Shown: piece after piece, positions 13,993 to 16,916 of the stretch | How positions within the stretch are numbered: the stretch's first letter is position 1 | Layout of the letters: every line of letters begins with the position of its first letter | NCBI GenBank assembly: GCA_016870515.1 | Contig: VGBL01000007.1 | Location: forward strand, 59,619 to 123,618 | Direction: 5' to 3' | DNA length: 64,000 nt | Origin: Actinomycetota bacterium | GTDB lineage: Bacteria > Actinomycetota > Actinomycetes > S36-B12 | Made by a program: the position numbers and the translations under genes | Notes under the pieces: generated by a model | The model's input: only the letters and a program-made list of their open reading frames with translations | What the model was told of the DNA's origin: nothing | The model's database searches: none

Positions 13993-14664
13993 ATGCCGGC
14001 GGCACTCCCGCCCAGCGAGTGGGACCTGCCCGATCCCGCGGCGGCCGCCGCGGGGGAGGAACTTCTCGCCGTCGGTGCCGACCTCGCACCGGCCACGCTC
14101 ATCGACGCCTACGCCCGCGGCCTGTTCCCCATGGAGGTCGAGCGCGATGGCCCGATCGGCTGGTGGTCGCCCGATCCGCGCGGCGTCATTCCGCTGGACG
14201 GGCTGCGGATTTCGCGATCGCTACGGCGCTCCTGCCGGCGGATGCGCACGACCATCGATCACGCCTTCAACGAGGTGATGGCAGCCTGCGGCGATCCGCG
14301 ACGACCGCAGGGCTGGATCACTCCGGCATTCCGCTCGGCGTACGGCGAACTGCATCGGCTCGGCTGGGCGCACTCCGTCGAGGTGTGGCAGCACGATGTG
14401 CTGGTCGGCGGCGTGTATGGCGTGCAGGTCGGCGGCCTCTTCGCCGGTGAGTCGATGTTTCACCGTGTCCGCGATGCCTCGAAGGTGGCACTCGTCACGC
14501 TGGTCGAGGTGCTGGGCGGCGACGCCGGCGCGCAGGAGGGGCGCCTCCTCGACGTGCAGTGGGCCACGCTGCACCTGCTGTCGATGGGCGCGGTCGCGAT
14601 GCCGCGCCCGGATTACCTGTCTCGCTTGCGCCTGGCCATCGCGCAATCGCCGGCGATCCCCTAG
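13993..14664 (+). CDS. aat: Aat, leucyl/phenylalanyl-tRNA--protein transferase
   Basis: A 223-residue enzyme that adds Leu or Phe to N-terminal Arg/Lys of proteins, marking them for ClpS/ClpAP. Family motifs seen: ARGLFPME, IGWWSPDPRGVIPL, HSVEVW, LVGGVYGV and FAGESMFH. Start ATG is 2 nt after the previous stop. It overlaps the TusA gene tail-to-tail by 4 nt. Confidence 0.95.
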   Translation: MPAALPPSEWDLPDPAAAAAGEELLAVGADLAPATLIDAYARGLFPMEVERDGPIGWWSPDPRGVIPLDGLRISRSLRRSCRRMRTTIDHAFNEVMAACGDPRRPQGWITPAFRSAYGELHRLGWAHSVEVWQHDVLVGGVYGVQVGGLFAGESMFHRVRDASKVALVTLVEVLGGDAGAQEGRLLDVQWATLHLLSMGAVAMPRPDYLSRLRLAIAQSPAIP

Positions 14665-14894
14665 CGGATGCGCACGAAGTAGGTCATCGCACCGTCGGGC
14701 TCGGCCTGCGAGCCCAGGAAGTCGACGCCCTTCATCTCACACCACGCCGGGATGTCTGATGCTGCGCCGGGGTCGGTGCAGACCACCGCGATGATCGTGC
14801 CGCTCGATGCATCGCGCGCCGCACGGGCGACGGAGACGACAGGAATCGGGCAGCGATGACCGCGCTCGTTGAGGCGAACGTCGGCCTTCATCAT
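14661..14894 (-). CDS. TusA-family sulfurtransferase
   Basis: A 77-residue protein with the signature RCPIPVV, whose cysteine would carry a persulfide, and the TusA-like end AMTYFVRIR. It would accept sulfur from a cysteine desulfurase and pass it on. Its ATG overlaps the TGA of the desulfurase-like gene. In other actinobacteria I recall these two domains being fused, so they likely act together. Too short for the track except as the end of a longer false ORF. Confidence 0.87.
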   Translation of the reverse strand: MMKADVRLNERGHRCPIPVVSVARAARDASSGTIIAVVCTDPGAASDIPAWCEMKGVDFLGSQAEPDGAMTYFVRIR

Positions 14895-16027
14895 CGGGAA
14901 CCCCCCTCGGACGCTTGCACCAGCGCACGAATGTCGCGCACGACTCCCGGAAGCATAGCGAGGAATCCGCGCACCGTGTCGTCGGTGACGCCGAAGGGGA
15001 GTGAGACGCGCACATTGCCCTGCGTCAGCACGCCCATTGCCTGCAGCACGTGGCTCGGGCGCCGGGTGTCGGCAACGCACGAGGATCCGCTGGAGATTGC
15101 GTATCCCTCGCGATCGAGTCCGAGCACCAGCGACTCGCCATCGACGTAGAGGCAGGAGAAGGCGGTGAGGTAGGGCACGCGCTCGTCAGGATCGCCCAGC
15201 AACATGACGTCGCCCACGTCGCGCGCGACCACCGAGCGGATCTCGTCGGTGAGGCTTCGCGCTCGCACGGCATCCTGCTGCCGCTGCTCGTCGGCCCACT
15301 CGAGCCCGCTCGCCGCGGCGAGCGCGAGGGGCACGCTCAACAGTTCGGGTCCGCGCTCGTCGTGGGGCAGCGGGGGCTGCCACCGCGTGGGGCGGCGTAC
15401 GCACAAGATCCCGACGCCGGCGGGGCCTCCCCACATGTGCGCGCTGCCCGTGAGGATCGACCACCCCTCCGGGGGGTCCAGGCGCCCCAGCACTGTGGAC
15501 GCATCCACGAGCAAGGGGACGCCGGCCTGCTCGCAGGCCGCCACGACATCGGCGAGCGGCTGGAGCGTGCCGACCTCGTGGTTGGCGGCCTGCAGGCAGG
15601 CCAGGGTCGCGCCCGGCAGGGCGGCCGCGAAGGCAGCGGCGTCCACGCGGGCCTGGCGATCCACCCCGATGGGACGAACCTCCCCCCCGGCCTCGGCGTG
15701 AGCGTCCCCCTGGGCCAGGGCGGCGCTGTGCTCGACGGAGGAGATGACCAGGGGACCGGGACGGGCGGCGAGGGCCCCGGTGAGGCCGAGTCGCAGGGCC
15801 TGGGCCGCTGACCCGGTGAAGACGAGGTCGGCGGGGCGGGCCCCCACGCGCGAGGCGACCGATTCGCGGGCGGCTTCGAGCAGGAGGGCGGCCCGGCGCC
15901 CGTCGCGGTAGAGGCGTACGGGGTCGGCCCACCCCGCATCGATCGCGGCGGCGAGGGCCTGGGCGGCACCCGGATTGAGGGGCTGTCCGGAGGCCGCGTC
16001 GAGGTAGCCGGCAGGAGGCAGGGCCAC
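14891..16027 (-). CDS. Cysteine-desulfurase-like class V aminotransferase lacking the PLP lysine
   Basis: A 378-residue NifS/IscS-type protein. It keeps the N-terminal YLDAASGQPL, the PLP-ring stacking region (SVEHSAAL), ANHEVGTLQ, and the active-site cysteine in SGSSCVADTRRPSHV. At the lysine that binds PLP (usual SAHKWGGP) it reads SAHMWGGP: codon ATG instead of AAG. Without that lysine normal PLP chemistry should fail, so this may be an inactive or altered copy, a recent mutation, or a sequence error. It starts at GTG with a -10 box 6 nt upstream and forms an operon with TusA. Confidence 0.86.
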   Translation of the reverse strand: MALPPAGYLDAASGQPLNPGAAQALAAAIDAGWADPVRLYRDGRRAALLLEAARESVASRVGARPADLVFTGSAAQALRLGLTGALAARPGPLVISSVEHSAALAQGDAHAEAGGEVRPIGVDRQARVDAAAFAAALPGATLACLQAANHEVGTLQPLADVVAACEQAGVPLLVDASTVLGRLDPPEGWSILTGSAHMWGGPAGVGILCVRRPTRWQPPLPHDERGPELLSVPLALAAASGLEWADEQRQQDAVRARSLTDEIRSVVARDVGDVMLLGDPDERVPYLTAFSCLYVDGESLVLGLDREGYAISSGSSCVADTRRPSHVLQAMGVLTQGNVRVSLPFGVTDDTVRGFLAMLPGVVRDIRALVQASEGGSR

Positions 16028-16100: not shown

Positions 16101-16916
16101 GTGACAAGCAGCGGTCGGCGCGCGTTCGCGATGGCCGCAAGCCTGGGCCTGATCGCCATTGTCGCCTCCGGATGCACCGCCAACGAAGCCTTCTTCTTCG
16201 ACATGCCCGAGCCGGCTACCGCCGAGGGCCCGATTATCATCAACCTCTGGAACGGCTCGTGGATCGCGGCGTGGGCCGTGGGCATCATCACCTGGGGTCT
16301 TATGCTGTGGGCGGCCATCGCCTACCGCCGTCGCAAGAAGGACGAGGTCCCCGAGCAGACCAAATACAACATGCCCCTCGAGGTGCTCTACACGATCGTC
16401 CCGCTGGTCATGATCCTCGGCCTGTTTGTCTTCACCGCGCGCGACCAGACCGAACTGCTTACCATCGAGGACAACCAGTCGCAGACCATCAACGCCGTCG
16501 GCTTTCGCTGGAGCTGGGCATTCAACTACCTCGACGAAGACGTCTACGAAGTGGGCTCGCCCAGCATGCCGCCGACGCTGTGGGTGCCGGTCGACGAGAA
16601 GGTCAAGTTCGAGCTCACCTCACCCGATGTCATCCACTCGTTCTGGGTCATTGACTGGCTGTTCAAGATGGACGTCATCCCCGGCAAGGTCAACGAGTTC
16701 GAGATCACCCCCAACAAACTCGGCACGTTCAAGGGCCGCTGCGCGGAGTTGTGCGGCACCGACCACTCCCGCATGCTTTTCAACGTGATGGTCGTCACCC
16801 GCGAGGAGTTCGACCAGCACATGCAGGACCTGCGAGACTTGGGGCAGACCGGCATGCTCGAAAGCGAGCGCGTCAGCTACGAGGGCGAGCGACCGTCTGA
16901 AAGGACGATCTTGTGA
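16101..16916 (+). CDS. ctaC: Cytochrome c oxidase subunit II (lipoprotein)
   Basis: A 271-residue aa3-oxidase subunit. The N-terminal signal ends in a lipobox (IVASGC), so the mature protein is lipid-anchored. Two membrane helices follow, then the periplasmic-side cupredoxin domain with the CuA ligands in [14 protein letters not shown] and the aromatic run FRWSWAFNY. CuA receives electrons from the QcrC cytochrome in the bcc-aa3 supercomplex. GTG start with a leaderless promoter; the stop overlaps ctaD. Confidence 0.96.

Follow-up and report, generated by a model that had tools for sequence, protein, structure and literature searches.

Apparent repeated loss of the PLP-binding lysine, with conservation of the persulfide cysteine, in cysteine desulfurase-fold proteins of Actinobacteria

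The window (the whole stretch of 64,000 nucleotides that was analysed) was found to encode a cysteine desulfurase-fold protein in which methionine, M198, occupies the site where cysteine desulfurases carry the PLP-binding lysine. Comparison with its relatives indicates that the loss of the PLP lysine is family-wide and has evolved repeatedly, and that the persulfide cysteine is conserved. Annotation by homology would be expected to call the lysine-less genes cysteine desulfurases, although their sequences argue that no bond with the cofactor is possible. The probable role of the proteins is to hand on sulfur or to act as a scaffold, not to release sulfur. Our preferred reading, to which we would give about an even chance, is that of a PLP-independent pseudo-desulfurase kept as a cysteine-based persulfide relay or docking scaffold.

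The substitution in the motif, SAHMWGGP, had been reported in the initial annotation, and it is real in the open reading frame (Table 1). The same annotation had described the catalytic cysteine as retained; indeed, C317 was found in an intact catalytic loop, SGSSCVADT. The protein matched PF00266 at 5e-26 (Pfam), and the NifS/IscS models also matched it, with scores far under the equivalog cut-offs. An AlphaFold model built from a 59-sequence alignment showed a pLDDT of 94 and a pTM of 0.92, and the nearest PDB folds found with Foldseek were the IscS proteins of M. tuberculosis, A. fulgidus and E. coli (TM 0.87-0.91; 0.90 for 4eb5, A. fulgidus IscS). By homology, the protein is assigned to the IscS/NifS group. 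It has no lysine at any of its 378 positions. Because of this, an internal aldimine with PLP is impossible, the N-terminus aside, and covalent PLP has almost certainly been lost.

Table 1 Features of the locus in the window.
Feature	Position	Strand	Remarks
Lysine-less protein with the class V aminotransferase fold of cysteine desulfurases, IscS/NifS-like	14891..16027	-	378 aa, GTG start, intact
Codon ATG (M198), aligned with the PLP Schiff-base residue Lys206 of E. coli IscS	15434..15436	-	
Codon TGC, retained catalytic Cys317 (E. coli IscS Cys328)	15077..15079	-	
TusA-type sulfur carrier of 77 aa with an intact CPIP motif	14661..14894	-	start overlaps desulfurase stop by 4 nt
Presumed ctaC (cytochrome oxidase subunit II), divergent neighbour, marker of the orthologous locus	16101..16916	+	named by recognition
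Presumed aat (leucyl/phenylalanyl-tRNA-protein transferase), convergent neighbour	13993..14664	+	named by recognition

Matches at E<=1e-60 were obtained in 65 of the 85 genomes of the same GTDB family, the window's own genome counted in. Position 198 was read in the 64 relatives of this family, and none of them has lysine there. The closest relative (85% identical) has threonine, encoded by ACG, and the remaining same-genus relatives have threonine or serine; outside the genus, aspartate is most frequent, with serine or glycine in some. Because of these residues, the methionine most likely arose from threonine by a change of ACG to ATG rather than from AAG; hence, the single base change from AAG to ATG that had been assumed at first is probably not the history. 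Close relatives with AAG, which had been named as the result that would speak against a real loss, were looked for among the same-family relatives and were not found. A recent or private mutation and a sequencing or assembly error had also been considered. Since lysine is missing across the GTDB family, none of these accounts for its absence from the window protein.

In a wider sample of Actinomycetes, 226 homologues were aligned, of which 136 carried the lysine and 90 did not. The residues at position 198 of the latter were aspartate (45), serine (15), threonine (14), glycine (6), methionine (3), alanine (3), histidine (2), tyrosine (1) and isoleucine (1), and 36 of the 90 had no lysine at all in the aligned core. 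No substitute lysine nearby was found to be conserved: the commonest, at position 306, is present in 23 of the 90 lysine-less homologues, and the window protein has none. Separate lysine-less cases were observed away from the window's order (L055:1990-3108, L092:2962-4149, L228:1450-2622 and L232:1465-2622), their hosts being a Propionibacteriales MAG (alanine) and Pedococcus and family f36 (serine). Outside the Actinobacteria, an Omnitrophota bacterium encodes a NifS-like protein (L102:2989-4164) that reads TANQFYGP, with glutamine for the PLP lysine and the catalytic cysteine kept.

The fate of the pocket was followed at 66 reference positions that are at least 98% conserved in the lysine-bearing orthologues. 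Retention in the lysine-less set was lowest for K198 (0%), S195 (26%), H100 (26%) and S101 (28%), and reached 100% for C317, S313, G314, R340, Q146, E151, Q156, G278 and V327. Cys317 was invariant in the lysine-less (90/90) and the lysine-bearing (135/135) homologues, Arg340 was kept in 89/89 lysine-less proteins, and T75 fell from 131 of 136 lysine-bearing to 7 of 90 lysine-less homologues. From IscS homology, we take H100 to stack on PLP, T75 and S195 to hold its phosphate, D175 to face N1, and R340 to bind the substrate carboxylate. In most lysine-less relatives, H100, T75 and S195 have been lost jointly, and 15 have histidine or glutamate in place of D175. From the retention pattern, the cofactor site has been freed from constraint and the cysteine loop has not. 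The window protein is a mild case of this decay, as only K198 and T75 are changed among the main contacts. Because H100, D175, S195 and H197 are still there, this member may bind PLP loosely and non-covalently. Furthermore, the lysine-less open reading frames are intact in dozens of independent genomes, and pN/pS between close relatives was 0.14-0.43; the genes are under purifying selection.

Trees were computed without the pocket columns. On these trees, the lysine-less state requires four to five changes, at least three of which are forced by well-supported branches, and a single ancestral loss, in which all lysine-less rows form one clade, was rejected by the AU test (p 0.0004). Because of both results, the lysine is judged to have been lost at least three times. 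When L163 and L055 were left out, one clade of the remaining lysine-less rows was still allowed by the same test (p 0.195). A fresh case was observed within one genus, where L163, with threonine, is 84% identical to L158, with lysine; residues 75, 150 and 195 of L163 are changed as well. Repeated loss at one locus, together with this pair, provides a natural series on a persulfide cysteine without PLP.

The lysine-less and the lysine-bearing proteins are orthologues, because they share a common locus, divergent from ctaC and often beside tusA. The divergent ctaC was found upstream in 130 of 135 lysine-bearing and 87 of 88 lysine-less loci, and aat was found downstream in 81 of 88 lysine-less loci. 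We also considered that the lysine-less proteins are paralogues distinct from the lysine-bearing ones; this was ruled out by the conserved synteny with ctaC. A scan for promoters and terminators found nothing.

A TusA-type acceptor had been noted next to the desulfurase gene, and the adjacent open reading frame indeed matched the Pfam TusA model (PF01206, 7e-16) and reads RCPIP, its score being under the NCBIfam equivalog cut-off. In 107 of 136 lysine-bearing and 51 of 90 lysine-less loci, tusA lies next to the desulfurase gene or is fused to it; when counted over the 87 lysine-less loci with enough flank to see it, an adjacent tusA with the CPxP cysteine is present in 51. No tusA was found at the locus in 36 of the 90 lysine-less cases (about 40%), and in those tusA-less loci that were inspected, aat-like sequence lies directly downstream. 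A hidden downstream TusA was considered for the genera without a TusA match and rejected: in the loci inspected, aat-like sequence is there instead, and Pfam TusA was found only unlinked, for example in G020 and G039. In genera g4, g6, g9, g10, g12 and g13, tusA has gone from the locus, the lysine-less desulfurase and its cysteine stay, and the aat-like sequence comes next (L012-L016, L023, L024, L114, L119, L127, L130, L135, L136 and L143). Fusions of the desulfurase with TusA were found in Streptomyces, with the lysine, and in genus g27, without it; the two g27 proteins (L195:1183-2619 and L196:1477-2916) have serine at the site and a C-terminal TusA with an intact CPAP cysteine (model pLDDT 87).

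Two lysine-bearing desulfurases are encoded elsewhere in the same genome, namely an IscS-like protein beside mnmA and SufS in the suf operon, downstream of sufC; iscU is absent from the window locus. Because the genome has these IscS and SufS proteins, the lysine-less protein is a third, non-canonical member, and the cell does not have to rely on it for desulfuration. The window's genome (96.7% complete) shows only the locus copy of TusA, and no 16S gene was found in its assembly. Most same-genus genomes (G022-G030) have a second, unlinked TusA that outscores the locus copy against Pfam.

From these features we infer that the lysine-less protein has no desulfurase activity: PLP catalysis would have been given up and the nucleophilic cysteine kept. 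As to a persulfide relay and the identity of its donor and acceptor, our hypothesis is that Cys317 would be loaded with sulfur by a genuine desulfurase (the IscS or SufS of the genome) or by a small persulfide and would hand it to a partner, in the window genome most likely the adjacent TusA. The loci without tusA rule out TusA as a linked partner in every genome, and another acceptor or a different role would be expected there. In the E. coli IscS dimer, TusA sits on one subunit, and its cysteine comes within about 4 A of the IscS cysteine loop that the other subunit contributes (PMC2854127). By analogy, such a geometry would work without PLP as soon as the cysteine is loaded with sulfur. Among the three options offered in the initial annotation, a sulfur carrier without PLP chemistry is the best supported; the loss of covalent PLP held up, as no lysine is present, and the carrier role is suggested by the adjacent TusA and by a cysteine that never varies. 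It is possible, and we propose it tentatively, that an active desulfurase-TusA pair repeatedly became a PLP-free persulfide relay in Actinobacteria, with sulfur passing from another desulfurase or small persulfides to TusA or a further acceptor.

Other roles for the cysteine were weighed against the relay. The protein might be a regulatory or heterodimeric pseudo-subunit that binds or controls IscS or TusA, its cysteine serving as a redox or persulfide sensor. The kept fold and much of the conserved core, together with the lost cofactor site, are consistent with such a role, as is the contact of TusA with both subunits of the E. coli IscS dimer (PMC2854127); we consider it unlikely. A scaffold role in the assembly of Fe-S clusters, with Cys317 as the ligand and a SufU/IscU-type scaffold as partner, as proposed for A. 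fulgidus IscS, is likewise unlikely. It has the closest mechanistic precedent with an equal lesion, in A. fulgidus IscS (D199) and M. acetivorans IscS1, and it agrees with the fold match to 4eb5 (TM 0.90) and the invariance of the cysteine, but the neighbour here is tusA and not iscU, around which the A. fulgidus case was built.

Catalysis could also persist, by non-covalent PLP/PMP or an altered mechanism. ColD, a lysine-less fold-type I dehydrase, is an example of unusual PLP/PMP catalysis, and the window protein keeps H100, D175, S195, H197 and R340, the last of which, presumably the substrate carboxylate arginine by homology, is present in all lysine-less proteins. However, the joint loss of H100, T75 and S195 in most lysine-less relatives and the histidine or glutamate at D175 in 15 argue against it. 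Moreover, residue 198 is not common to them (D, S, T, G, M, A, H, Y or I), unlike a replacement catalytic base, and persisting catalysis would be improbable. Finally, the draft state of the assembly (61 contigs) and the variable pocket could indicate that the gene is decaying, or that its sequence or assembly is in error. This we regard as very improbable, given the intact open reading frames in dozens of genomes, the pN/pS of 0.14-0.43, the 100% conserved Cys loop and the retained locus, which point to an explanation that is largely refuted for the lysine-less family.

A. fulgidus IscS has aspartate for the lysine and was reported to be devoid of desulfurase activity and to supply a cysteine ligand for a [2Fe-2S] cluster; the essential lysine is likewise absent from M. 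acetivorans IscS1 (PMC7585200). The site reads SND in PDB 4eb5 and SNK in the D199K mutant, 4r5f. Like the window protein, A. fulgidus IscS (4eb5, 4hvk; mutant 4r5f) has the desulfurase fold, a replaced lysine and the catalytic cysteine kept; unlike it, the protein is archaeal, about 30% identical, and was studied with IscU in an Fe-S ligand role and with no TusA. Clade-wide pocket decay is not described for it in the open-access literature consulted, where we also found no paper on the actinobacterial lysine-less family. M. acetivorans IscS1 resembles the window protein as an IscS paralogue without the lysine and differs in being archaeal and in belonging to a set of three IscS copies that are each paired with a separate IscU. 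The actinobacterial proteins carry the A. fulgidus precedent beyond single archaeal examples into a large clade of bacteria. The lysine-bearing actinobacterial orthologues (Microbispora, Nonomuraea, Streptomyces, Jiangella and Glycomyces) share the locus, often with tusA adjacent or fused, and are about 45-59% identical, but they have SAHKWGGP or SARKWGG and a complete PLP pocket, and are presumably active desulfurases. The E. coli IscS-TusA pair (3lvj) is like the window pair in its fold and in the kind of acceptor, and offers the geometry for Cys to Cys persulfide transfer. E. coli IscS, for which Lys206 and Cys328 are confirmed (PMC2854127), differs in that it holds PLP on Lys206 and makes the persulfide itself.
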